Positions 36,021 to 53,600 of a stretch of 64,000 nt of DNA are shown in pieces. The stretch comes from a virus. Made by a program: the position numbers and the translations under genes. The stretch lies in IMG/VR virus record IMGVR_UViG_3300031227_000023, positions 1 through 64,000 of that record; one strand, 5' to 3'. Below the pieces are notes generated by a model. It was given only the letters and a program-made list of their open reading frames with translations, had not been told where the DNA came from and did no database searches. Each line of letters starts with the position of its first letter. The first letter of the stretch is position 1.

Positions 36021-38753
36021 CTATGTTGCAGGCGATGGTTCAAGCATTCTAGCATCACGGGCTTCCCTAGCATTGGCCACTGCTTCTGCCACCACATCAC
36101 CATCAATTTCCACCGTCACCTGTGTTGGCCTGTCTATCGCTGCCTTCATATCAGCACGCAACGCATCCCACTGTTTCTGATAGTCTGCTTGCGCACGTGC
36201 AGCTATCTTGCTTTGCGCTGCAACTCTTGCCGCCACATTATTCACACCTGTTGGATCTGGAATCACAGCCTGCCGCGCCTGCTGCACCACTTCCGGGCCA
36301 CCGTTGGCAGCAACCTGCAATGTAGCTTCAGCAGCAGCGGCTTCCCGTTGCCGCCTCTTTACAATACGGAAAGCAAACTGCCGTTCAAGCCGTTCCTGTG
36401 TCTGCCCATTAACAGTATCGGTTTCCTTCATTTGTGCGAACATTGCCGCTGCACGTTTCTGAATGTCCGCACGCTGCGCCTGATTCATTGACTGCAACGC
36501 TTCTTCACCGGTTGCCGCAAACTTTTCTGTTACGCTTTTTTCCAACCCCAATTTTTCACGGATGTGGGTGATGGTTTCCTTGATTTCATCCCACTTGTGT
36601 GCCAGCAACAACAGCCCTGCGGCAATGGCAGCAATGGCCAAAGAAATTGCACCAAACGGGGTGACGGACCACGCCAAGGAAATGGCTGCACCCATCATGC
36701 GCATGAACAGCAACAGCGGCTTTAAGATAATCAGCCCGGCAGTAACGGCAAGAATGCCGGTTGCAATTCCGCCCAACACCTTGCCAGTGATTTCACCGGC
36801 CCCGTTCCACCCAACAATCGCATCCTTGTTTTTATCAAATTCCCCCGTGCCGCCATTGATAATATCCCACACCAAACTGAACGCATCACCCATCATGCCG
36901 AGCATGGGAAGTAAATAATTGTCAGCAGCATCAGCAATGCCTTCCACCATCCCATCAAAGAACTTCCCAACCCTTGTGAAAAACTGGCTTGCATTATCCA
37001 CAAACTTCAGCAGCCCTTCATTTTCCGCCTTCCCCAACTCCTTTGTCATAGCATCAGACAAATGGCCATCAACCAACAACTGCACCAACGCTTGGAATCC
37101 AAGCTTGACCTTTTGCAACGGTCCAAGGAATTTATCCAAATCATCACTGCCCTTGCTGAACTGTTCCCGCACCACCTTGAACATCTTGTACATCACCCAC
37201 CCAATTGCAACGATGGGAAGAATGGTCAACATCAACTTGCCCATCATCAACATCATCCCCTTGGCACTGATGCCAAGCAAGCCCATCACGCCCTTCACCA
37301 ACAGGATTGTTCCGGCCAACATCAGGAAAGAACCTGTAAGCACTACAACCTTGGAAATCAACCGCTTTGTTCCATCATCCAACCCGCGCCACGTAACAAT
37401 CAGCTTGTTCAAATTTTCAATCATCCACTCAATGGCAGGCCGCATGACCTGTGCAAACGCCTTGCCAAACACAATTTCAAACGTCTGCGCAGAACCCTGC
37501 AACAGAATCATTTGCCCCTTGAACGTATCCAACAGCTTCTTCCTGAATTCTTCAGCCGCGCCTTCTGCACCTTCAATTGCAAACCGCATGGCATTGACTG
37601 CCGCCCGACCCTTCACCAACATCTTGGTTGCCGGATCAAGTGCATTAGTCAGGAACACCACGGCATCTGCATTTTTCAACACCGATCCGCTGCCGGTCTT
37701 AATCGCGCCACCACTCTTTTCAATCTCTGCCCGCAGATCCCTATAACCCTTTTCACCAATGATCATTTCACCGTTGGCCAGCTTCACTGCTTCCCGGTTG
37801 GCAAGAATGGCTTTAGTAACGGCACGGGTCACACCGGAAAATGAAAGGATTCCGCGCCTGCCCGCAAGGGTGGCTTCAAGACTCTGCCGCTTTTCATCCG
37901 TCCAATCTTTTGTGACTTCAGCAAGATCCAAAATGATATCCATCATCGGGCGCATTTGCTTAGTTTCTTCATCGAAAACCTTTGCAAACGGCTTGATTGC
38001 ATCCTGCACGCGACGTTCAGAGCCCAACCGCATGAACGCAGCAGACAACGCTGTCTGCGCCGTGAAGGCATCAATGCCCACGTTTCGCATCAGACCCATT
38101 GCAATCAGCATGTCATCAAAAGACTGCCGGAACGGGGAACCCTTACCCATCAACTTGGGGAACGCCCCGATCATGTCGCGTGTTTGAAAGTTGGTAAGCT
38201 GTGTCACCCGCAACAGCTTGTCAGTCATAAGTGCCGCTTCCCCAACATCACGCCCGTATGCCTTCAGTGAAGCAGACGCAATGGCAGCAGCATCAGCCAC
38301 GCCCAACTGACCCATGGAACCGGCAGCAAGATCCAAAGACGAACGCAGCACGGTCATGGAATCAGCCGCATCAAAGCCCGTAGCACCCAAGACTTCCAAG
38401 CCTTCAGCGGCTTCCAGTGGGCTAAACTGCGTGGCAATACCAGCACTGATTGCAGCGTTTTCAAGCAGTTTCAATTCCCGCGTGGTGGCCTGCGTGATCC
38501 CACTGACTGATGCCATCTTGAATTCAAATTCAGAAAAACCCTTTGCTGCGCTGAACGCACCTGAAAGCAACTTGGCACCGGCAGTGAAAGCAGCAAACCC
38601 CTGCCCCATCAGTTTCAGTGAAGCCGTGGCCGAACGGGTATGCCCGGCAAAGCCCATCATGCCGGAAGACATGTGGCGCATCATTTTGCCAAGGCCACCA
38701 TCCTTGCCTTGAAACAAAAACCCCGTGCCCATCAGGCCGCCATTCAGTGCCAT
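36021..38753 (-). CDS. Tape measure protein, 910 aa
   Basis: Sets tail length and passes through the host membrane on ejection. The TP901-type core is at residues 60-330 (FEFKMASVSGITQATTRELKLLENAAISAGIATQFSPLEAAEGLEVLGATGFDAADSM...). Hydrophobic clusters at about 465-540 and 650-730 (VVLTGSFLMLAGTILLVKGVMGLLG; GISLAI/AIAAGLLLLAHKW type) probably form channel helices. The C-terminus is coiled-coil and acidic. It sits right after the tail-chaperone frameshift genes, as in lambda and P2. A 910-residue measure would predict a tail of roughly 130 nm. Confidence 0.9.
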   Translation of the reverse strand: MALNGGLMGTGFLFQGKDGGLGKMMRHMSSGMMGFAGHTRSATASLKLMGQGFAAFTAGAKLLSGAFSAAKGFSEFEFKMASVSGITQATTRELKLLENAAISAGIATQFSPLEAAEGLEVLGATGFDAADSMTVLRSSLDLAAGSMGQLGVADAAAIASASLKAYGRDVGEAALMTDKLLRVTQLTNFQTRDMIGAFPKLMGKGSPFRQSFDDMLIAMGLMRNVGIDAFTAQTALSAAFMRLGSERRVQDAIKPFAKVFDEETKQMRPMMDIILDLAEVTKDWTDEKRQSLEATLAGRRGILSFSGVTRAVTKAILANREAVKLANGEMIIGEKGYRDLRAEIEKSGGAIKTGSGSVLKNADAVVFLTNALDPATKMLVKGRAAVNAMRFAIEGAEGAAEEFRKKLLDTFKGQMILLQGSAQTFEIVFGKAFAQVMRPAIEWMIENLNKLIVTWRGLDDGTKRLISKVVVLTGSFLMLAGTILLVKGVMGLLGISAKGMMLMMGKLMLTILPIVAIGWVMYKMFKVVREQFSKGSDDLDKFLGPLQKVKLGFQALVQLLVDGHLSDAMTKELGKAENEGLLKFVDNASQFFTRVGKFFDGMVEGIADAADNYLLPMLGMMGDAFSLVWDIINGGTGEFDKNKDAIVGWNGAGEITGKVLGGIATGILAVTAGLIILKPLLLFMRMMGAAISLAWSVTPFGAISLAIAAIAAGLLLLAHKWDEIKETITHIREKLGLEKSVTEKFAATGEEALQSMNQAQRADIQKRAAAMFAQMKETDTVNGQTQERLERQFAFRIVKRRQREAAAAEATLQVAANGGPEVVQQARQAVIPDPTGVNNVAARVAAQSKIAARAQADYQKQWDALRADMKAAIDRPTQVTVEIDGDVVAEAVANAREARDARMLEPSPAT

Positions 38754-38793: not shown

Positions 38794-39060
38794 CTATCCT
38801 CTTGCCGCACGCGCTTCTTTTTGCCGCTGTTCTGTCACCCGATTCAACAGCCACAAGAATTGCTGCATGTCCAGTTCCCAAGCTTCCTTCCACGATATGT
38901 TCAGGCCACTGCCGTCTTGCTGCCACATCAGCCCAAACACGCCTTCAAGAATTTGTTCCCGGCTCATCACCGGGAACATGGCACCGATCAGTTCCGCTGC
39001 CGTCGCATCCGTGCCCTTTTCGATATACCAACCGCCGGAATCAGGAACCGTGAATCGCCA
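38794..39060 (-). CDS. -1 frame extension of tail assembly chaperone (88 codons)
   Basis: The -1 frame after the slippery site codes WRFTVPDSGGWYIEKGTDATAAELIGAMFPVMSREQIL... to ...QRQKEARAARG, 88 residues. The frame opens immediately after the heptamer and is preceded by a stop three codons before it, so it can only be reached by a shift. An internal ATG at 38979 allows a separate short product, but its ribosome site is poor. The fused product would be about 350 aa (262 + 88), analogous to gpGT in lambda and gpE' in P2. It lies directly before the tape measure gene, where it would bind during tail assembly. Confidence 0.75.
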   Translation of the reverse strand, partial: WRFTVPDSGGWYIEKGTDATAAELIGAMFPVMSREQILEGVFGLMWQQDGSGLNISWKEAWELDMQQFLWLLNRVTEQRQKEARAARG

Positions 39061-39845
39061 AAAGGGATGTCGAAATCATAGGTTTCCCCGCAGGATGGGC
39101 AAGCCACATCAATGGTAGTGTCAACACCACAGTCCACCTGATCCATGTAATCACGCAACGCTTCTGCATCCTGCGTGTACATTTCCGATTCAATCCACTT
39201 GGGCAGATCCACACCCTTCACCCCTTCCACTTCCAGCACACGCATGCGCAGGGCTGCGCTTGATAGCTTCTGTCGCTGTTGGTGCTGTATCTTGGCAAAC
39301 TTCAGTTCATCTTCGCCGGTGGCCAGCTTGAACCAACACGTGCGCTTTGCAACTTCCAGCCCGAACGCAAACTTGTTGTCACCGGATTCCAGTATCGCCC
39401 GGCTTGCCTTCGGAAGTTCCTGCACGGTCAGTGCGTCAAGGTCCACTGCATTAGACTGATCCTTTTCCCCGCATTCCGTACACGTGGCGGGAATTTCATA
39501 ATTCTTCCCATCCTTCACGCTGATCTTCCTGAGATTAACCAACATGTGGAACCTGTCACCCTGCAACAGTTTCAGCGGGTTCAGCCGCGCACCGTCTTCA
39601 ATTCCCCACCCCGCATACACGCCCGGATCATCGACACCCAACAGGCAGGCGTCAAGGATTTGGGAAAGGGCAACGCCGCTGCGCATCTTGGCCCGATCCG
39701 CCAACGCATTCTGTTCCTTCACCTTCATTGGCCTGATCCGGTACACCATCCCAGACGGTGCCGTGAACTGTTGGCCATCACCCCCAATGGGTACTTCTTT
39801 TATGGGATCTTCTTTGGATGTCTTGGGCGGGTCTTTCTGTGGCAT
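38988..39845 (-). CDS. Tail assembly chaperone / T4 gp26-like protein, 285 aa
   Basis: Located between tube and tape measure, the standard place of the tail assembly chaperone. N-terminus PSGMVYRIRPMKVKEQNALADRAKMRSGVALSQILDACLLGVDDPG resembles T4_baseplate (gp26-type) proteins. Two CxxC pairs (CTECGEK at about 123, CPSCGET at about 251) form a zinc site. After ...DFDIPF the zero frame runs only 23 more residues (GDSRFLIPAVGISKRARMRRQRN). A -1 shift at C-CCT-TTT makes the longer product. ATG 39845 is chosen over the GTG one codon upstream. Confidence 0.7.
   Translation of the reverse strand: MPQKDPPKTSKEDPIKEVPIGGDGQQFTAPSGMVYRIRPMKVKEQNALADRAKMRSGVALSQILDACLLGVDDPGVYAGWGIEDGARLNPLKLLQGDRFHMLVNLRKISVKDGKNYEIPATCTECGEKDQSNAVDLDALTVQELPKASRAILESGDNKFAFGLEVAKRTCWFKLATGEDELKFAKIQHQQRQKLSSAALRMRVLEVEGVKGVDLPKWIESEMYTQDAEALRDYMDQVDCGVDTTIDVACPSCGETYDFDIPFGDSRFLIPAVGISKRARMRRQRN
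39060..39066 (-). other. -1 programmed frameshift slippery heptamer CCCTTTT
   Basis: On the minus strand the zero frame reads ATC-CCT-TTT-GGC. The heptamer C-CCT-TTT is a perfect X-XXY-YYZ site (X=C, Y=T, Z=T). A -1 slip gives CCC-TTT-TGG-CGA, which enters an open 88-codon frame that otherwise begins only after a TGA stop a few codons upstream. Confidence 0.75.
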
Positions 39846-39943: not shown

Positions 39944-40396
39944 TCAAGCCGCTTCTTCCCAATAGTCACAGGCAATCACCACCGACTCTGCCCGGTGGTC
40001 ATCACTTGTTGCGTCAAAGTCACCTTCACTGAACCGCTTGCACCATGCGTTGAAACACCTGATGCGCTTCACGTCGTTCCCGGCCCGATCCAACTGCACA
40101 ACGTCAATCGTGCGGTACAGATCAGACGGGTTGGCACCGGTGCCTTCAGCCACAGCAACGCATTCCTTCATCCACTGAAGCAGATCAGTGTCATCATCGA
40201 ACACGCCCCGTTCCAACGTGATGTCAGGGAACGTGACAGTGGCACCCGGCTGCTTCTTAGCAATCAGGGAACCGCCTTGCTTGTAACTCGATTCACCGAC
40301 TTCCACAGCAAGTTCCGAACAGCTTTGGAATTCGGCAGACACCACCTTGTCAATCTCAACAAGGAAAGTGCCTTTCAACATGAAATCGCGTGCCAT
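39944..40396 (-). CDS. Tail tube protein (T4 gp19-like), 150 aa
   Basis: Small tube protein of the gp19 family: begins ARDFMLKGTFLVEIDKVVSAEFQSCSELAVEVGE, with the F-x-x-C/G-S-G-L type turn early, then KQPGATVTFPDITLERGVFDDDTDLLQWM (the L-x-R-G-x-x-x-D-x-x-L-x-x-W signature) and a C-terminal strand pair. Hexameric rings stack on the tape measure inside the sheath. It follows the sheath gene directly, and the GAAAGGGTTGCTACC site is good. Confidence 0.9.
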   Translation of the reverse strand: MARDFMLKGTFLVEIDKVVSAEFQSCSELAVEVGESSYKQGGSLIAKKQPGATVTFPDITLERGVFDDDTDLLQWMKECVAVAEGTGANPSDLYRTIDVVQLDRAGNDVKRIRCFNAWCKRFSEGDFDATSDDHRAESVVIACDYWEEAA

Positions 40397-40444: not shown

Positions 40445-42685
40445 TCATGCTGCTTCGTCAAACGCCCGCGTGTCTTTCGATACTTCCACATTGATGAACT
40501 CAGCAGGCGTGGCCATGGCCAAGCCCATACGAACCTTCAGCTTCCCCTTCGCAACCTGCGGTGCCGGGTTCAACTCCTCGGATACATCCACAAAGAAAGC
40601 CGTTTCCGGGTTCTTCGAAGCAAACGCGCCAATGCCCATCTGCCCGCGCAAGTAGATTTCCACCATACGCTTGACCCGCGCACGCAGTTCCGGGGTGTTG
40701 TTTTCGTGCTTCACGAATTGCAACAGTTCCACCACATCGTGCTTGATATGGATCACGCCCCGGCTTTGGTTCACGAACGGCCAATTGCTGTTGCTATCCA
40801 ACGCCCGTCCACCGTCCACATGCCGTGGCCCGGCTGCATACTGCGTGATGGGGTTGATGCGTTCGGGGTAAAGCAAATCCCTGATTTCATCCCGCAGCAC
40901 TGCTTCATCCTGGAAGCCAATGCACCCACGCAGGTGCCCGTTTTCCGTGCCAGCCGGTGACTTGTAAATGCCACCCTTTTTGGTGTTATCCAATCGAGAC
41001 ATCAGACCCATGATCCCACCGGACGGGGGAACATCAACGCTGTCTTCATTGCCGTACACCGACACGGACGGGTTCACAACCTTGTACCATGGCCAATAAA
41101 CCGAACCGTTGCCCGCACCGTCTTTCAACGCTGCCGTGGTTCCAACATACGTGATGGCCTGCGTGTACGTGTTGCCCGTGGGGGTGTCAAAGACCACATA
41201 CACCATGCCTTCACGGTACGTGTCTGCGTACACGATCAGGCCGGACGCAACGCCCGCTGTGGCCCTACCAGGAACGGCCAACAGGGAAAGGTTGTGGATT
41301 GCGTTTAAGCCATACAGGCCATTCACACCGGCTTCACTGCCAATGAAATCTGCATCAGCAATGCTTGCCAATCCATCGTTGCCACCGGTCATTGCGGCAG
41401 ACGTGGCATTTGCCGGACGTTGCGCAGTGACGGAACCAGCCGCATCTTGATCTGTCACACTGATCAGGCTGCTGCCCGTGTCCGCGTGATTGATCACGGT
41501 TTCACAGAAGTTGGCAAGGGTATCACCCATGGAAATATTCTTCCACCGCTCCTTTACCAACCCGGACACCAACACGTACAGGTTGAATTCACTGGCAGTG
41601 CCGCTTGTTGCGGCTGCCACCTGCACGGTGATGTTCGCGGCAAAAACGCCTTCAGTCTTGCCGTTGCATACCAACGTGTTGACTGCCGTGCCTGCGCTGC
41701 CGTAGTTCACCGCATTGTCAAAGCCAATTTCATCATCAGCCGTGGAAGCCGCAAGGATCTGCACGCTTGACGCTGCGCCGGTGGTGTTGGAAGTGATCGT
41801 GATGGTGGTGGTGCCGGAAACGGTAACACCGCTGCCTTGCGTCACTGCCAATTCAATGATCGTCTTCAATTCCGCACCCGTCACGTTGGCCACATCAGCC
41901 ACGTTGCCTGTGCCGGTATTCAGATCCACAGGGAAGCCCAACACCGCGTTGGACGTGCCACCGGTAATCTGCACCTTGGAACTTGTGCCCAACACATCAG
42001 ATATGATCCGAACGGTGTTGCCACCAATCACGGTGCAGCTTGCACCGATCAGACCCGCGTTGATCACTGCCGCCACTTCTTCAGCGGTTGCAGCACCAAT
42101 TGCGGAAAAGGAACCGGTCAAAAAAGTTACGGTCTGCGTGCTGCCGCCATCAATCTGCACGGTCAGGGTTTCCGCATTGCTAAGGGCAAACGTTTCCGTG
42201 CTTACGCACGTTTCAACAGCGGCAACCGCAGTGATCGTTGCCGTTTCTTCCGTTCCGGGTATTGCGGTGTCAACCAAGACTTCCAGGGTGTCACCACTGG
42301 CCAACGCGAATGTGGCACTGTTGGTGCTGATCACGGCACCGGCAGACGCACTTGCCGCAGCCGTTTGCAACGTGACAGCACCCTTAGCAGCCGTGGCCAA
42401 CGTGCCAGCATCCACATCCGAATAATGGACCACGCGCACGATCCAAGCATACTTGCCGCCTTCACGGAAAAACTGCGCAACGGCCAAGGCCATGTCACTG
42501 TTGGCGTTGTAGCCACCGAACTTTTCCACATATTCCGTCCAAGAGGTGACAAGGGTGGCTGCACCAATCGGGCCACGGTCAGCAACCCCAATGAACCCGG
42601 CCACTGCTGTTGGCTTTTCAGCCAAATCTTTCATCAATGGCGTGGCATCAGAAGCCTTCACGCCCGGACTAAGTTGCGTCGTCAT
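40445..42685 (-). CDS. Tail sheath protein with inserted repeat modules, 746 aa
   Basis: N-terminus (QLSPGVKASDATPLMKDLAEKPTAVAGFIGVADRGPIG...SWTEYVEKFGG) and C-terminal half (PPSGGIMGLMSRLDNTKKGGIYKSPAGT...LLYPERINPITQYAAG...RALDSNSNWPFVNQSRGVIHIKHDV...VDVSEELNPAPQVAKGKLKVRMGLAMATPAEFINVEV) are those of contractile sheaths. Between them, residues about 95-450 form a large insertion with at least two related modules (171-252 and 262-322), each with a strand pair, an AxEV-x-x-x-IN helix and an SS-x-VQI strand. These would sit on the outside of the sheath. One closely resembles residues 213-294 of the P2 gpI-type protein (24426-26444). Confidence 0.9.
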   Translation of the reverse strand: MTTQLSPGVKASDATPLMKDLAEKPTAVAGFIGVADRGPIGAATLVTSWTEYVEKFGGYNANSDMALAVAQFFREGGKYAWIVRVVHYSDVDAGTLATAAKGAVTLQTAAASASAGAVISTNSATFALASGDTLEVLVDTAIPGTEETATITAVAAVETCVSTETFALSNAETLTVQIDGGSTQTVTFLTGSFSAIGAATAEEVAAVINAGLIGASCTVIGGNTVRIISDVLGTSSKVQITGGTSNAVLGFPVDLNTGTGNVADVANVTGAELKTIIELAVTQGSGVTVSGTTTITITSNTTGAASSVQILAASTADDEIGFDNAVNYGSAGTAVNTLVCNGKTEGVFAANITVQVAAATSGTASEFNLYVLVSGLVKERWKNISMGDTLANFCETVINHADTGSSLISVTDQDAAGSVTAQRPANATSAAMTGGNDGLASIADADFIGSEAGVNGLYGLNAIHNLSLLAVPGRATAGVASGLIVYADTYREGMVYVVFDTPTGNTYTQAITYVGTTAALKDGAGNGSVYWPWYKVVNPSVSVYGNEDSVDVPPSGGIMGLMSRLDNTKKGGIYKSPAGTENGHLRGCIGFQDEAVLRDEIRDLLYPERINPITQYAAGPRHVDGGRALDSNSNWPFVNQSRGVIHIKHDVVELLQFVKHENNTPELRARVKRMVEIYLRGQMGIGAFASKNPETAFFVDVSEELNPAPQVAKGKLKVRMGLAMATPAEFINVEVSKDTRAFDEAA

Positions 42686-44471: not shown

Positions 44472-44968
44472 TGCTGCTGCCTGTCATCAATAGTGATTGC
44501 CAAAATATTCCGCTTGGGATTATGCAACGCCAACCCGTAACTGTCGGGCACCGCCTTCACAACGTATTGCCCCGGTGGGTTTGTGAATGTTTCAATCAAC
44601 GTTCCATCCTTCTGATACAACGCCGCAATTCGATCACCGGGTTTGATCAATGCCCGGCCATCAGTCCCAACCAAGCCGTTCCGTTCCAACCACTTAAAAT
44701 GCGCAAGATACACCGTGCGGGTCTTTGGAGTCTGCCCACCCGCCATCTGCTGCTGTTCGTTGACCCGTTCTGTATGGATCTGAACAGGCACCCGCACTTC
44801 AGCCATTTCCCTGCGGCTGGATTGGCCAACAGGATTCCCCGCCACTGCGGTTTTGATTGGTTCCCGGAAATCTTCATCGTACCCACCACCGACAACATCA
44901 GCAGTGGCTTGGGTATCCAGCCTGCACACCCCAATTAAAAATTTGCTAATCAACCGTCCTCTTGGCAT
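44468..44968 (-). CDS. Unknown head-tail connector-region protein, 166 aa
   Basis: Beta-rich C-terminus (KPGDRIAALYQKDGTLIETFTNPPGQYVVKAVPDSYGLALHNPKRNILAITIDD) suggests a small barrel as in head-closure proteins. The N-terminal third is charged and probably flexible. Coded between a connector-type gene and the gpS-like gene. ATG 44968 has an AGGTGTGCCAC site; an ATG three codons upstream is possible. Confidence 0.55.
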   Translation of the reverse strand: MPRGRLISKFLIGVCRLDTQATADVVGGGYDEDFREPIKTAVAGNPVGQSSRREMAEVRVPVQIHTERVNEQQQMAGGQTPKTRTVYLAHFKWLERNGLVGTDGRALIKPGDRIAALYQKDGTLIETFTNPPGQYVVKAVPDSYGLALHNPKRNILAITIDDRQQQ

Positions 44969-45450
44969 GTGGCACACCTTTGAAGATTTATGACTTTTTT
45001 AATTGCACGCAGCAATCCGTCATATTTTGCCAACTCTGAATTGCTGTAAGCAATCGCAAGCACGCCTGCCCGCGCCTGATCACAATCAATCCAGAATTCA
45101 AATCTTCCATTGGTCTGCTTGTTGGCCCGCAGCAACGCATGACCCTTGGCCATCATGAACGCTGCAAGTGCTAAATCTTCCACTTTTATACCACACGAAC
45201 CGCCTTGACGCATAACATTAGTGCCACTCCCAAACCTGACCGCGTGCCGTAACTCTTGCACCCGTTGGTCAAATTGAAAGCATGCCCCGTTGCGCCACTT
45301 ATCCTTGGCTTCACTGTGCAGCAGATCGTTTTCATCAAACACAAAGTCATGCTTTTCACGCCTTGACTGCGCCAACTCCACGCCCTTCAACGGAACCCCT
45401 TCAAGCAACAGCCACGCGGCAAACCCGATTGAATGCGTATGGTATATCAC
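44950..45450 (-). CDS. Unknown protein, paralogue of 46960-47427, 166 aa
   Basis: Its C-terminus, AYSNSELAKYDGLLRAIKKVINL, matches that of the 155-residue protein at 46960-47427 (NYTNSECTGFDACMRALKRLVNL). Both share a helical N-terminal start, an F-x-F-D/R-Y-D-R-x-V-x-x-LR segment and an LALAA/LGLAA helix. This looks like the DUF5659-type phage pattern, whose function is unknown. Uses a GTG start in a GTGA overlap. Confidence 0.6.
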   Translation of the reverse strand: MIYHTHSIGFAAWLLLEGVPLKGVELAQSRREKHDFVFDENDLLHSEAKDKWRNGACFQFDQRVQELRHAVRFGSGTNVMRQGGSCGIKVEDLALAAFMMAKGHALLRANKQTNGRFEFWIDCDQARAGVLAIAYSNSELAKYDGLLRAIKKVINLQRCATCQEDG

Positions 45451-46959: not shown

Positions 46960-47427
46960 TCATAAATTTACAAGACGCTTCAGGGCACGCATGCATGCGT
47001 CAAACCCTGTGCATTCACTGTTGGTGTAATTAATCGCAAGCCGCTTCCACAGGCTGCCGCCCGGATCGTCAAAAATAAACCGGTACGCGCCACGATTCGG
47101 CTTACACGCAACCACCAACTTCACATCGTTCACGATCATCCATGCAGCCAATCCCAAGTCACTGGCAATCACCTGCCCACGTTCAGCATCACGGTACTGT
47201 GGATTTGACTGCGCAATTTCACGCAGGGTGCGCACTTCCCTATCGTACCGGAACAGATCGCGTGAAGCATATGCACCAATATCAGATTCCCACTTCCGTT
47301 GCTCGCTTGGCAGGAATGTGAAAGTATACCTGTAACGGTCATCCATCACGGCATCCTTCAGCATCCAACCAAGCTGCAACAAGAAGGAAGCAACCCCAAG
47401 ATTCGTGGTTTGTAATTGATCAGCCAT
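46960..47427 (-). CDS. Unknown protein, paralogue of 44950-45450, 155 aa
   Basis: Matches the neighbouring 166-residue protein in its end (YTNSECTGFDACMRALKRLVNL) and layout: N-terminal FLLQLGWMLKDAVMDDRYRYTFTF, middle LFRYDREVRTLREI, SDLGLAAWMIV. Retaining two diverged copies two genes apart suggests a structural or assembly role in the neck. The start has GGGATAGGAACCCA. Confidence 0.6.
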   Translation of the reverse strand: MADQLQTTNLGVASFLLQLGWMLKDAVMDDRYRYTFTFLPSEQRKWESDIGAYASRDLFRYDREVRTLREIAQSNPQYRDAERGQVIASDLGLAAWMIVNDVKLVVACKPNRGAYRFIFDDPGGSLWKRLAINYTNSECTGFDACMRALKRLVNL

Positions 47428-47434
47428 TGGGTTC

Positions 47435-48184
47435 CTATCCCTTCGTGGTGGACGCCTTGCGTTTGGCCGGTGCTTTTCGTTTGGCCTTGGCCGGGGCCCT
47501 TTTCTTTGCCACAGGCTTCACGACCGGGGGGGAAGCAGGGGCAGGGGCAACCGCTTCAGCCAACGTGCCCGCATCTTGCGTGGCACCGTGATCAACCAAT
47601 TCCCCTTTCTCGTTCACTTCAACCATCTTCGGTGTGGAAGCACGGGATGCCCGCGCCCCAAGGTCTGTGTTTTCATTCAACGTCACTTCATCCAACCCCG
47701 CATCCCAATCCTTACTGCCGTCCACTTCACCCTTCACCACCTCGCTTGTGCGGGTTGGAACATCCGGGTGGACTTGTTCCGGTTCCGGCAACGCCTGCAC
47801 AACACCGGGAAGGTCCGCACCCGGCCCAACCAAGTCACGTGTCCGGCCAACAGGGCTGGCCTTGATTACCACCGGGGCAGCAGCGGGTTCATCCTGGAAA
47901 TCAACAGCACTTTCAGGATTACCCTGCGGAATAAACCCGGCCTGCTGCATCTGCTTCCTGCGCCGTTCCTTGATTTGTTCCTGCAATTCTGCCGGGGTGA
48001 TGGACTCGAAAACCGGCAGACTGTCAGGGTCAGCGGGGTTGGTCAGTGCCGTTTTCAGGTAAGGAACAACCCCCGCATCAACCGTGTACCACCCCTTGTC
48101 TTTGTGAAAAATCGTTGACCCAATCGTGTACGTTTTACACTTGGCCTGCACCCTGATCCGCACCAACAGTTTGTCTTGTCCCAT
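47435..48184 (-). CDS. Unknown protein with H1-like tail, 249 aa
   Basis: The first 75 residues (VRIRVQAKCKTYTIGSTIFHKDKGWYTVDAG...LTNPADPDSLPVFE) are a paralogous domain of the next gene upstream (48244-48639). The middle is disordered and acidic. The last 30 residues (KPVAKKRAPAKAKRKAPAKRKAS) copy the Lys/Ala/Pro composition of histone H1 and bacterial histone-like tails, implying nucleic-acid binding. ATG 48184 is preferred because AAGGAG then lies eight bases upstream; ATG 48190 is too close. Confidence 0.6.
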   Translation of the reverse strand: MGQDKLLVRIRVQAKCKTYTIGSTIFHKDKGWYTVDAGVVPYLKTALTNPADPDSLPVFESITPAELQEQIKERRRKQMQQAGFIPQGNPESAVDFQDEPAAAPVVIKASPVGRTRDLVGPGADLPGVVQALPEPEQVHPDVPTRTSEVVKGEVDGSKDWDAGLDEVTLNENTDLGARASRASTPKMVEVNEKGELVDHGATQDAGTLAEAVAPAPASPPVVKPVAKKRAPAKAKRKAPAKRKASTTKG

Positions 48185-48243
48185 CGTCATTGCTCCTTCT
48201 TATTTCACAATGCCACGTTCACAACGAACGCAGCCAACCATCT

Positions 48244-48639
48244 TCAATTAACATCATTCCGAACCCCCGGAACAACAACAGGCACGCCACCACGCCCACC
48301 CATTGCAGTCAGCCCGCCAATACTATAAACAGGCTTTGCTGTGGCCACCCACGCAGCCATTTTCCTGCCACCCGTGCCAGTTGCACGCGGCAAGTCTTGC
48401 TTCGCTTTGCCATCTTCCACAACACCGGCACGTTCAGGTTCAACGGCAACGGCTATTTTCTCTTGCGATCTGACTTCAAACACCGCACCGCTGTCAGGAT
48501 TTGAAGGATTCACCAACACTCCACGGAACACTTCAGCCGCACTATCTTCCACCACGAACCATCCCGCACCCTTGTGGTAAACCCTGCCACCCATCGTGTA
48601 TGTTTTACATTTCATGTCCGGCTTGATTCGTACCTGCAT
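48244..48639 (-). CDS. Unknown protein, paralogous N-terminal domain, 131 aa
   Basis: Its N-terminus (MQVRIKPDMKCKTYTMGGRVYHKGAGWFVVEDS...LVNPSNPDSGAVFEV) matches the 47435-48184 protein over about 65 residues, with KCKTYT-[IM]-G, HK-x2-GW and NP-x-xPDS identical or conserved. Residues 70-131 are charged then Gly/Val-rich. Probably a small neck or capsid-surface module. ATG 48639 has AGGCAGATCC. Function unknown. Confidence 0.6.
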   Translation of the reverse strand: MQVRIKPDMKCKTYTMGGRVYHKGAGWFVVEDSAAEVFRGVLVNPSNPDSGAVFEVRSQEKIAVAVEPERAGVVEDGKAKQDLPRATGTGGRKMAAWVATAKPVYSIGGLTAMGGRGGVPVVVPGVRNDVN

Positions 48640-48652
48640 GGATCTGCCTGCT

Positions 48653-49597
48653 TTATTTTCGATCAGCAACAACAAACAATTCAACGCCATCACTGCCAAG
48701 GTGCAGCACTTCTTTCTGTGTCACATTCTTCAATACTTCTTCCAACAAATCCTTCCCAATAGCACCACCGACAAACAAAAATTTTGTTTCCTGAATCATG
48801 CAATTCAACCGGTTCCTTGCCAGTTCAATTTCACCACTGCCAAGCACCCGATCCAAAACGCCAACACAGACAGCAACTACAGCCCTGCGCGGGATTCCAT
48901 TATCTTCAAACACATCACCATGCCTGTATGATACAAGCGAATCAAAGACCCAATTTAAATGCTCTGCCACAGCCCGCTTCTGCGGATCTTTTTCAATTCC
49001 AATCACACTAAAGCCAATCTCTTGCAGCATCCTGCTTTTCCCACCAGTGCTCGACCCAACGTCATACGCACGCCCCGCACGCAAATTGTTTTCGTTGCAG
49101 AAACGATGAACATGTTGAAACCACCCGGACGAATTCACAACATCCCAATCGCCAAAGGCAGGATGATCAATCTGTTCCCGCAGTACATGCCCGTTCTGAA
49201 ATTGCACCAACCTGTCTTCCAAATCAACCCACATCTGATTCACTTGCTTGACTTCAACCGGAACAGGAAGCCCGCAAACAATGAACCGGCCACTTCTATG
49301 ATGCCCGTCGAGCATTTCATATTGCCCATTCCCGTGCAAAATAGCTGGTGCAGCAAATTCCGAATCTATCTCTTCGCCTTGAAGCGCACGCAAGGCTTCA
49401 ATTCTTCCCACCGCTTCATCTTCTGTCATCCCGTATGCACCACGTATCGCCTTGAAATACGTTGTTGATCGGTAATCACCACCACTTTCCAATGCCCGGT
49501 AAACATCACACACGGCAAGATTTGCAGCATTCCCCCGCCTTGCTCCGTCAATGCTTAACCACCGTACGGGAACTTGATGAATGATGCGCTCTGTCAT
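48653..49597 (-). CDS. ParB-like plus SAM-methyltransferase protein 1, 314 aa
   Basis: The N-terminal half has a ParB-like patch, APAILHGNGQYEMLDGHHRSGRFIVCGLPVPVEV (near 82-116). The C-terminal half has a class I methyltransferase glycine-rich loop, GRAYDVGSSTGGKSRMLQEIGFSVIGIEKDPQK (near 173-205). Residues downstream (RAVVAVCVGVLDRVLGSGEIELARNRLNCMI) complete the Rossmann sheet. A ParB-like domain can bind nucleotides or modify DNA, so the pair may act on nucleic acid or sugar nucleotides. A tandem paralogue follows the same layout, and the next gene upstream is a giant glycosyltransferase, so a modification pathway is likely. Confidence 0.65.
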   Translation of the reverse strand: MTERIIHQVPVRWLSIDGARRGNAANLAVCDVYRALESGGDYRSTTYFKAIRGAYGMTEDEAVGRIEALRALQGEEIDSEFAAPAILHGNGQYEMLDGHHRSGRFIVCGLPVPVEVKQVNQMWVDLEDRLVQFQNGHVLREQIDHPAFGDWDVVNSSGWFQHVHRFCNENNLRAGRAYDVGSSTGGKSRMLQEIGFSVIGIEKDPQKRAVAEHLNWVFDSLVSYRHGDVFEDNGIPRRAVVAVCVGVLDRVLGSGEIELARNRLNCMIQETKFLFVGGAIGKDLLEEVLKNVTQKEVLHLGSDGVELFVVADRK

Positions 49598-50631
49598 TTC
49601 TTTAATATTCCAGGCTTGGCCAACGCAAAAACATCACGCTTTTCCGTCTGCCCGATGTGAACAACTTCCCTGTTGGTCACTTCACCAAGCCACTTCATGT
49701 ATGGTTCTGTCTCAAAGGAAACAATCGACTTGTTCAAGGAAACGTCACCAACAGCACCACCATCAGTGATGAATACCCGTGTTTCCTGCACCATGCGCTT
49801 CAGCCGGTCAATCACAAGCTGATGATACCCTTGGCCAAGAAACCGGTGCAGCACACTGACACACACAGTCAACGCTGCCCCACCCCCGTGTGGTGGCACG
49901 CCTGTTTCATTGGTCAAGTCGCCACTCCGGTACGATACAAGCGAATCAAAAATCCAATTGCAATACGATGCCACAGCACGCGCATTGTCATCAATTTCCA
50001 CGCCGATCACGCTGAAACCAAGCCCGCGCAACATCCTGCTGATGTGCCCCGTGCAAGATCCAAGATCCCACGCCGTGCCCGCGCTGCCTTCATTCACACT
50101 AAACATCTCTTGATAAACAAGCCAATCCTTGATCAATTCCGTGCGCCTGCCTGACCTGTCAATTTCCCAATCCCTGAATTCAGGATGTTCAATCGGCTGA
50201 TACAGCAACCGCCTTCCACTATAAATTCTTTCCAACCGATCCTTGAACGCAAGCCACATCGGGTCAACCTGATTCAAATCAACGGGAATTTCAGTGTGCC
50301 CATCAACGATCATCTTGCAAACCCGGTGATGGGCATCACGAAGTTCATAGACACCATTGGCGTGCAGGATCACAGGCGCAGCAAAGTCTTCCCATATTTC
50401 AGATTCAAACAAACCCCGCAGCTTGTTGATCCGCGCCCGTGCCTGTTCAGGCGACATGCCCAACCCATCAGTGATCACTTTGAAATATTCCGAACCTTCC
50501 CCGGATTCGCCACGCTTCATTGCCCGGAACAAACCACAAGCCGCCAACTCTGTTGGCACCGTCCCCAAGGCACCTTCAACACGCAGCCACGGAACGGGAA
50601 CAAGATATTTTTCGCCCATATCAATCACCAT
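49594..50631 (-). CDS. ParB-like plus SAM-methyltransferase protein 2, 345 aa
   Basis: Paralogue of the previous gene, about 40% alike by eye. ParB-like patch APVILHANGVYELRDAHHRVCKMIVDGHTEIPVDL; SAM loop GTAWDLGSCTGHISRMLRGLGFSVIGVEIDDNAR; shared NWIFDSLVSYRSGD. The DGHHR motif of protein 1 is DAHHR here, so the two may have diverged in activity. ATG 50631 has an AGGAAAAAC site and overlaps the end of the glycosyltransferase gene by seven bases, implying coupled translation of all three genes. Confidence 0.65.
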   Translation of the reverse strand: MVIDMGEKYLVPVPWLRVEGALGTVPTELAACGLFRAMKRGESGEGSEYFKVITDGLGMSPEQARARINKLRGLFESEIWEDFAAPVILHANGVYELRDAHHRVCKMIVDGHTEIPVDLNQVDPMWLAFKDRLERIYSGRRLLYQPIEHPEFRDWEIDRSGRRTELIKDWLVYQEMFSVNEGSAGTAWDLGSCTGHISRMLRGLGFSVIGVEIDDNARAVASYCNWIFDSLVSYRSGDLTNETGVPPHGGGAALTVCVSVLHRFLGQGYHQLVIDRLKRMVQETRVFITDGGAVGDVSLNKSIVSFETEPYMKWLGEVTNREVVHIGQTEKRDVFALAKPGILKK

Positions 50632-53600
50632 GTTTTTCCTGTGAAGTGCCGAACCAATGCCCACCCTGGAAGATTATCGTATTCACTAAACCGTTTTTCT
50701 TGATCAACAACATCAGCAGCCATGCCAGCAATCGCACCACTCAGGGCATACCAATCATACACATCCCCTGTACGCCTGAACCGTTCCAATATCTTCCCAA
50801 CTGCCCCATGCACCCACGTCATTGATTCAGGCCGGAAACGGGCTTTCTGCGCCAAGCTGAAATAACGCTCATAAATTCCAAGCAACGTCCACTTCGGGCT
50901 GTGCTGCCCAAGTATCCCACAATGGATCGGGTCAACATGGTGCAGAACGTTTGCAACAGCGACCCTTCCCCCATCCTCTTGCAACTTTTTCATTTGCCCA
51001 ACGTCGCAAGACAGGCCATCTGTGAACGTGTATTTTCTGATCAAGTCTGCATCATACGCCTTCACCCCAAAAATTGCCCGCCCAAGATGCACATCCCACA
51101 ACCCCGCGCACGCAATGGCAACATCATCTGTTTCGTTGATCATCCGGAACAGCGTGGCAATGGCGTTGGGATACAACACCATGTCATCATCAACTTGCAC
51201 AAAATACTTTGTTTTGCACCGATCAATCATCTGCTGAAAGGCAGCACTCATTGGTTCAATATTCTTGATTTCCCTGACAGCGAACCGCGCCGTTTGCCCA
51301 TGCAAAGCTTCCACCACATCGCTGTAATTAATCCCTCCCGTTGTCACAACGAACACTGTAAGCATTTCAGTCAAGTCATACGACCGGGCAAAATCAGGAA
51401 TCAAACAGTGCTTCCGAACAGCCTTGAACGAGACCGGGGCAGGGGCAGGCGTGGAAGGAACAGGCACCATCGCACCTTCACCACTTTTCGCTTTTCCTTT
51501 TTCCGTTTCCACAACCCGGCACAATTCACGCAACGACTCTGCCCTAATTGACCAATCCCACGCACGGACCATTTCCGCACGGTTCGCACGACCCATTGCA
51601 GGAAGCAAGTGCCGGTTGTCACGCAACCGAACCAACTCCTTCTGCACCGCTTCAACCGTCCTATCCACAATGATTGCACCGCTGGAAAAAACTTCCGGGG
51701 CAATGCCGGTGCGCGTGCTTATCCACGCCCGCCCGCAGGCTGCCGCTTCAAGCAACATATTGGGGGTGCCTTCAATCCATTCCTGCGAACAGCACAGCAC
51801 CACATCAACGCCTGCGTAAAACTCAGGCATTTCTTCAATCGGACGCCACCTGTCTTTCCTGTCTGCCATCACAAGTTCAACACCATCAACGCCATCAATT
51901 GCAGCATGCAACAATGGCATGCCCTTCACATCAGCCCAACGCCAATCAGTATTTGTGGACCCTGCCCACCCCACACGCAGCGGCGTGTCATTCAAATCGG
52001 TGCGGTATTCACTGAACCGGAACAGGCCGGTATCAACCCCATCTTGACAGAATCCAAACTGATGTTCACCAACCGCATACCCAATTTCAGAACTGACAAT
52101 CCGAAACAGATTGAAGTTGGCAAACATATGATAAGGGGTGAACTTCAAGCCTGCCACCAACTGTTCGCGTTCCCACGTTCCCACACCCCACGTGGCTGCA
52201 TCATAGTGCGCAATGATCACAGCGGTGTGTGGACCCAACTTGTCTTTGATGTCTGCAAGTGCTGCATACCACATCAGAACAACAATATCATAATCAAGCA
52301 CCGCAACATCGGGCAATTCAAGCAGTGACAGCCTGTCAACAATAAATTCATCAGACAGGAACCGGGCTTGCTGTTGTGCTATTCTGGAAAATGCCCAATT
52401 AGGACGGTCATACACGATCAGCACACGCTTTTTCCCGCCACCTGAACAACCACCCGTGGAAGCACAAGCAACAGGGGATTCAACTTCCCCTGCACAATCA
52501 CATTCATTTCCAACCACGCCACCCCCGTCAACTGCCCCGATCTGCACCGCAGGCTTGCCGCTGTGGCCGTCACTGCCATCAGCAGGAACATCTGGCAGCA
52601 CATCTTCACACTTGGCCTTCACGGGCAAAATACGAAGGTTCAAATTCCTCTTGGCCAGTGCTGTTCCAAACTTTCCAACCTTCAACCACGCTTCGCCACG
52701 TCCGATCTGTTCCACTTCATCCATCAGCCGGAACCATTCACCAAACCCACCCTTGTACGTTTTCACTGCGAACGGATACCCCGCCAACCCATGCATGGAA
52801 GGCACGTGGAATTTTCCAGCCCGTGCTTTGCACCCCAACGTCACCACGGGGCAACCCAACCGGATCACATCCAACACCGTGCTGCCCCATGACTCTTCCA
52901 CCAACGGGTTCACAAACCCCGTGGCCTGTGACAGCACGTTGCCGATATTTTCCACATCAGCAGCAGCGTGGAACCGGAACTGCGCAGTGCCCGCCCCACG
53001 GAACAGTTCAGGCTGCCCACCGGAACCGTACACCCACAGCAATGAATCCGGGTGCTTAGGCGCATAGTGCTTCTTCCAGCTATTCACGAACCGGACCACC
53101 TGCGAATTGATCACCCCCGCGTACACCCACAAGTGCTTACCACTCCGGACCAATTGCCGGGCTTCAACATCAGCCTGCCCAACAGCCAACCTGCGAACAG
53201 GAAGCACGCACGGCTTCACATCCATCCATGGGTAACGCTTTTCCAATTGGCCAGCATATGGGGTGAACGGGGTGAATACCCTTGCGCCTTCCAGCGCACT
53301 GCGCACATCGTTCCGTTCAAACCAACCATCAGGCATCAGCGGAATGATCACGGTGTGATCAGGCCACGGCACCAACTCGTCATTGACAGCGGGAAACACG
53401 GTCAAGTTCCCATCGAACCCACCCCACACAGTATCAGCATCAGACGCCACACCCGGCCTGCACCAACGCTTGGCACCGTGCCGCACCGGCAACACGTCCT
53501 GCGCCAACAGATCATCAGCAACGGCTTCCACCACTTCCACATGATCAGGGTTTGGATACACGCCACGATCCGCAGCGAACCTTCCCGTGACAACAAACTT

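Follow-up and report, generated by a model that had tools for sequence, protein, structure and literature searches.

A T4 gp26/gp51-family tail assembly chaperone with a putative −1 slip site at CCCTTTT, and the two-product layouts of its relatives

Tail gene layout

Between the tail tube and tape measure genes of a virus lies a chaperone gene whose end is overlapped by a second open reading frame. The question raised by this locus is whether that frame is a gene of its own or the end of a longer form of the chaperone. The DNA analysed (the window; 64,000 nucleotides, positions 1 to 64,000 of IMG/VR record IMGVR_UViG_3300031227_000023) comes from a virus record of 89,915 bases, and its minus-strand gene order is sheath, tube, chaperone, (second frame), and tape measure. 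The reading favored here, with a probability of about 0.88, is that the phage has a contractile tail with a T4-type tube and that its chaperone, encoded at 39845–38988, is made in a short form and in a long form that would arise by a −1 slip at CCCTTTT. The features are listed below; L010 is the one independent close relative of the locus.

40445–42685, minus strand: tail sheath (phrog_23, E = 1.4e-41; phrog_15814, E = 7.2e-157)
39944–40396, minus strand: tail tube, T4 gp19 family (PF06841, E = 9.4e-27)
38988–39845, minus strand: short-form chaperone, zero frame, 285 aa, T4 gp26/gp51 family (PF12322, E = 2.1e-10, residues 29–259; phrog_150, E = 4.6e-15)
39471–39482, minus strand: first CxxC pair, C123 and C126 in 286-aa numbering, invariant in the five family members first aligned
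39090–39101, minus strand: second CxxC pair, C250 and C253 in 286-aa numbering, invariant in the same five; sub-threshold zinc-ribbon Pfam matches
39060–39066, minus strand: putative slippery heptamer C-CCT-TTT, read in frame; same heptamer and place in L010
38988–39075, minus strand: 29-codon overlap, with the −1 frame already open before the zero frame stops
38794–39063, minus strand: T-like extension in the −1 frame, translated as 89 codons followed by a stop (phrog_20255, E = 1.4e-8; 49% identical to its equivalent in L010; profile matches with extensions from other phages)
38794–38979, minus strand: possible internal start of the −1 frame, ATG 38979, 61 aa, 8 nt past the zero-frame stop
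36021–38753, minus strand: tape measure protein (PF10145, E = 5e-26; phrog_1533, E = 7.2e-43)

The sheath protein was unusually long (746 aa); its Pfam sheath matches were all sub-threshold, and those to phrog_15814 and phrog_23 were strong. No tRNA genes were found in the window, and GC skew was negative throughout, consistent with a minus-strand position for every tail gene. Three sets of neighboring genes appeared paralogue-like by eye: 48653–49597 and 49594–50664; 47435–48190 and 48244–48699; and 44950–45450 and 46960–47427. Four of these six proteins were scanned, and none had a Pfam match at 0.001.

The chaperone belongs to the T4 gp26/gp51 family

The zero-frame chaperone ORF runs from GTG 39848 or ATG 39845 to TGA 38990–38988, giving 286 or 285 aa; by eye, ATG 39845 has the better spacing behind GAAAGGG. 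Its product matched PF12322 (T4_baseplate) with 41.1 bits against a cut-off of 24.5. T4 gp26 (E = 8.8e-64) and T4 gp51 (E = 3.9e-52) match the same model, and gp51 continues for about 48 residues past it. From its position and family, the window protein is inferred to be a tail assembly chaperone. The first-pass annotation, made from the sequence without database searches, had reported a T4 gp26-like start, a zinc ribbon, and an unusual chaperone type. The kinship with gp26 held and proved to extend well beyond the start, across residues 29–259; the two CxxC pairs behind the zinc ribbon are present, with zinc-ribbon Pfam matches staying below threshold; and the type is the known gp26/gp51 one rather than an unusual one. 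Predicted structures had mean pLDDT values of 46.6 for the chaperone and 61 for the extension, whose model was helical and of low confidence; both models were of too low a quality for a fold search. A sequence search of the PDB returned no relative.

The putative slip site and the −1 frame

CCCTTTT had been described in the first-pass annotation as an exact X-XXY-YYZ heptamer leading into an 88-codon frame that ends shortly before the tape measure gene, and the coordinates agree on each count. C-CCT-TTT at 39066–39060 is the sole in-frame XXXYYYZ of the window chaperone gene, directly follows the second CxxC pair, and falls within the overlap of the two frames. Open from 39075, three codons ahead of the heptamer, the −1 frame ends at 38794, 41 bases short of the tape measure start at 38753; counted from TTT 39063 it has 89 codons, 88 of them beyond that TTT. 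Starting from ATG 39845, the predicted products are 285 aa in the zero frame and 350 aa after a −1 slip. The same annotation had called the case textbook, a term that suits the site and the frame and is otherwise a little strong, because no downstream structure exceeded shuffled sequence and an internal ATG lies just past the stop.

Downstream RNA folding gave z-scores of +0.72 for the window and +1.80 for L010, both weaker than shuffled sequence, so that the proposed structure search lent no support and no stimulatory element was found downstream. In one window fold the heptamer pairs with a downstream AAAAGGG, and this fold was also weaker than its shuffles (z +1.15). No internal Shine-Dalgarno sequence was obvious by eye 10–14 nt upstream of the heptamer. 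A stimulatory element is a common accompaniment of −1 frameshifting and not a strict requirement. With no downstream structure standing out, the ratio of short to long form is perhaps set by the heptamer alone.

A long form could also arise from slippage of the polymerase on the template instead of the ribosome on the message, and some relatives do carry runs of six or more T. The window run is CCC-TTTT, however, and four T are short for polymerase slippage; transcriptional slippage is accordingly given hardly any weight, and the ribosomal slip is retained.

Conservation in an independent relative

Searches of the viral contig collection with the chaperone, the extension, and the tube, together with two-sequence alignments of each, recovered three near-identical records and L010, and no further close relatives. 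Two scans of genome contigs found no close relatives, and tblastn with the extension against named phages gave nothing convincing. Two of the near-identical records reach the slip site and are unchanged there; the third stops before it.

L010 is 53% identical to the window in the tube, 44% in the chaperone, and 49% in the extension. Gene order, the heptamer, its position at the same residues, and the −1 frame are all kept, with the L010 −1 frame opening one codon ahead of its heptamer. Across 277 aligned codons, the codon itself was kept at 47 of 124 shared residues, and the two chaperone genes have their longest stretch of identical DNA (TCCCTTTTGG, 10 bases) at the slip site. Past the zero-frame stop, the two extensions differ at 30, 18, and 39 sites in codon positions 1, 2, and 3, respectively, over 63 codons, a coding mark that indicates protein selection on the extension. 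The first-pass annotation had proposed checking the heptamer in relatives, and had named relatives that keep the frame and lose the heptamer as the pattern that would speak against it. The heptamer is kept in L010 and in both near-identical records that reach the site, and no such pattern was seen in the close lineage.

Synonymous re-draws using each phage's own codon usage placed an XXXYYYZ at the exact position in 6.8% of cases for the window and 6.4% for L010; with any position in the overlap counted, the figures were 12.7% and 12.1%, respectively. Elsewhere in the window, nine late genes totaling 4,062 codons held eight in-frame XXXYYYZ between them and no CCCTTTT. At a chance expectation of 6–13% per genome, the heptamer by itself is modest evidence, and this same expectation is what would allow two genes to lie side by side with a chance heptamer in a functionless overlap. 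The case for slippage rests instead on sharing of the heptamer, DNA conservation, and the family pattern. If the two genomes are taken as independent, a shared position for the heptamer has a chance of about 0.4%, and the site persists in L010 at 44% protein identity with the longest identical DNA run exactly there. A chance heptamer is consequently regarded as very improbable.

Two reading frames across the family

The family pattern was read in 30 loci, comprising 28 named or metagenomic records from a phage collection, the window, and L010; these were hand-picked from longer lists (e.g., 8 of 155 records; six plus T4 of 1,339; four of six Streptomyces records). The second frame was at −1 in 12 of the 30, at +1 in 10, and in the remaining 8 two family genes, short and long, stood side by side, one-gene and two-gene classes here describing the locus as read (for two-gene loci, from annotated genes or translated ends) and not the copy number of the whole genome. 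Out-of-frame extensions were present in 22 of 22 one-gene loci read, a layout that further disfavors a functionless overlap and accords with a −1 slip in the window.

Perfect heptamers lay in the overlap of all 12 −1 loci. Two of these (the window and L010) have CCCTTTT, and the other ten have TTTTTTC or TTTTTTT on an FF end motif: PA5oct, Munch, GAP32, RaK2, XacN1, RAS14, Vibrio 2.275, Atu_ph07, S-SM1, and LR756511. In a separate set of cyanophage loci (80 kept of 293 found), T-TTT-TTC led into the extension in 80 of the 80 fetched, against TTTTTTN at 28 of 246 other FF sites in the same loci. The corresponding control in eight jumbo phages gave TTTTTTN at 5 of 24 other FF sites, which makes each single jumbo case weaker. 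In S-SM1 (L043, 6573–6755), the 60-aa ‘gp51 baseplate hub assembly catalyst’ coincides with the −1 extension of gp26 at T-TTT-TTC and, on this sequence reading, is probably not a separate gene. In one cyanophage contig (L103, 1501–2204), a gp26-like gene is broken by an upstream indel, probably an assembly or sequencing error, and the slip site and extension are intact.

The ten +1 loci were SP-15, LIS04, GXN1, immuto, Mel-JY01, BRock, pSt2308, LuckySocke, GiJojo, and LR756508. In +1-frame members the overlap falls on the FF end motif (L012, 7565–8504; L013, 7759–8700; L021, 2426–3437; L018, 2402–3365; L019, 2327–3407; L011, 7891–8974; L023; L024; L025; L044), at sites such as TTT-CTT-TGG in immuto, TTT-TTT-TGG in Mel-JY01, and TTC-TTT-CGT in GXN1. 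Judged from these frames, the extensions are likely reached by a +1 shift; a −2 shift may be used instead.

Two-gene loci were found in T4-like and Campylobacter phages: T4, Xman, P4-3, Aeromonas 31, KARL-1, RCIP0002, a Krischvirus, and Campylobacter CP81. Pseudotevenvirus-like phages (L027, 2501–3794; L032, 2501–3795) have genes 51 and 26 next to each other in tandem, whereas in T4 they face apart; the tandem arrangement would be a trace of the duplication. In CP81 (L045, 1665–2977), two adjacent genes resemble a short and long chaperone pair, and their sequences are long-branched and could not be placed in the tree.

A possible separate small gene with its own start

The −1 frame of the window might instead be a small gene of 61 aa, started at ATG 38979 by termination and reinitiation with no slippage. 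That ATG sits 8 nt past the zero-frame stop, in Atu_ph07 the stop and a start overlap as ATGA, and annotations of S-SM1, GAP32, Munch, XacN1, RAS14, Vibrio 2.275, and others treat the second frame as an independent small gene. ATG 38979 is not shared by L010, however, where the first listed start is TTG 5412; this codon lies behind the conserved P31, R35, and E36, which a protein starting there would omit. The −1 frame is moreover open back to the heptamer in both genomes, no clear Shine-Dalgarno sequence precedes ATG 38979 by eye, and the heptamer is perfect in all 12 of the −1 loci read. An independent start is therefore considered unlikely, and slippage at CCCTTTT remains the preferred explanation.

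Homology of the extensions and phylogeny

Using hhalign, the cyanophage extensions matched the C-terminus of T4 gp51 with a probability of 96. The immuto-group and Gram-positive-group extensions matched the jumbo extensions with probabilities of 91 and 89, and the jumbo plus immuto group matched gp51 with 85. The extension of the window pair (the window and L010) matched the pooled +1-type extensions plus LR756511 with a probability of 86 and a score of 33.6; the column-shuffle control, run against the jumbo and the jumbo plus immuto sets, peaked at 14.4. Against the jumbo plus immuto group, its probability was 48 and its score 26.6, with 40 column shuffles reaching 13.9 at most. Direct comparison of the window pair with the T4 gp51 C-terminus gave no match (probability 0.5). 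The predicted long form thus carries the family's C-terminal extension, linked to gp51 through intermediates only.

A maximum-likelihood tree of 39 family proteins placed the window pair among the +1 phages and LR756511 (90/86, not strong support). The strongly supported branches of this tree require at least two changes for the −1 state. In the alignment, the window slip site lies about six codons upstream of the FF position of its relatives, where the window reads FL. These sequence comparisons suggest that the −1 site of the window lineage was a separate invention.

A broader reading, tentative and held at somewhat less than even odds as a whole, is that this is one family in which output of two products was kept while the means changed several times. 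On that reading, four routes would be in use: a −1 slip at T-TTT-TTC on the FF motif in cyanophages and jumbo phages; a +1 shift at about the same codons in SP-15, LIS04, GXN1, and Flavobacterium, Microcystis, and Streptomyces phages; gene duplication in T4-like phages and, possibly as an independent event, in Campylobacter phages; and, in the window lineage, a −1 slip re-invented from a +1-shifting ancestor at a new CCCTTTT site about six codons upstream.

Predicted mechanism

Most ribosomes would complete the 285-aa short form. In a minority, tRNA-Pro on CCU and tRNA-Phe on UUU would slip one base back and re-pair with CCC-UUU, giving a long form of 350 aa in which the last 22 short-form residues are lost and 88 new ones are gained. 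The conserved Pro-Phe pair of the second zinc-binding loop would thereby double as the slip site. On the model of lambda G/GT, the region common to both forms would coat the tape measure protein and the extension, present in the less abundant long form, would recruit subunits of the tail tube; neither form would be part of the finished tail. Gene order, family, heptamer, open frame, the conservation of these in L010, and the two-frame layout of the family are seen in the sequences; the slippage, its rate, and these roles are predictions.

Relation to known systems

The lambda heptamer, GGGAAAG, differs from CCCTTTT, and the first protein here, which has two CxxC pairs and falls in the T4 gp26/gp51 family, is likened to lambda G and P2 E by layout. 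That layout, as described in an excerpt of a 2016 review, comprises a position before the tape measure gene, a −1 shift late in the first frame, and a helical extension (PMC5009743), the helix of the window extension being a low-confidence prediction. The same excerpt presents G/GT frameshifting as widespread and T4 as the exception.

T4 gp26/gp51 share with the window PF12322 and a short and a long form, and the C-terminal extension of gp51 is matched by the −1 extensions of cyanophages. T4-like phages differ in using two genes and no frameshift, in place of the single gene with its out-of-frame extension seen in the window. In their citing passages, the PRFect and Adele papers credit Vladimirov, Gautam and Davidson (2022) with identifying gp26/gp51 as the short and long tail chaperones of T4, with describing how T4-like phages encode their chaperones in one short and one long, fused gene, and with poly-T slip signals in T4-like chaperone genes (PMC10885494, PMC12846349). 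The Vandenendeviridae phage Adele resembles the window in that the chaperone of this myovirus, too, has a conserved −1 slip close to its end, followed by an extension ahead of the tape measure; it differs in its slip motif, GTTTTT, and the description does not say whether its first protein belongs to PF12322 (PMC12846349). Bacillus phage 0305phi8-36, in the excerpted account, shares the idea of short and long forms, with two genes, no frameshift, and different proteins (PMC2147016).

The chaperone family and both solutions, frameshift and two genes, are thus already known in outline. The literature search, in which Vladimirov 2022 was reached through citations only, returned no text on CCCTTTT in such a gene or on +1 cases in this family. 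Read from sequence, the window would add a T4-type chaperone whose slip site, CCCTTTT, sits about six codons ahead of the one usual in the family; its lineage is weakly grouped with the +1 phages.

Significance

Outside the T4-like and Campylobacter phages read, every locus of the T4 gp26/gp51 family that was read has an out-of-frame extension, at −1 or +1 and at differing sites. This accounts for the small ‘hypothetical’ or ‘gp51’ genes ahead of tape measure genes in many phage annotations. The CCCTTTT variant is an added case, with no visible stimulator. Tail assembly is set by the ratio of short to long chaperone, and the family offers a natural series for asking how a fixed protein ratio persists while the genetic mechanism behind it is swapped.
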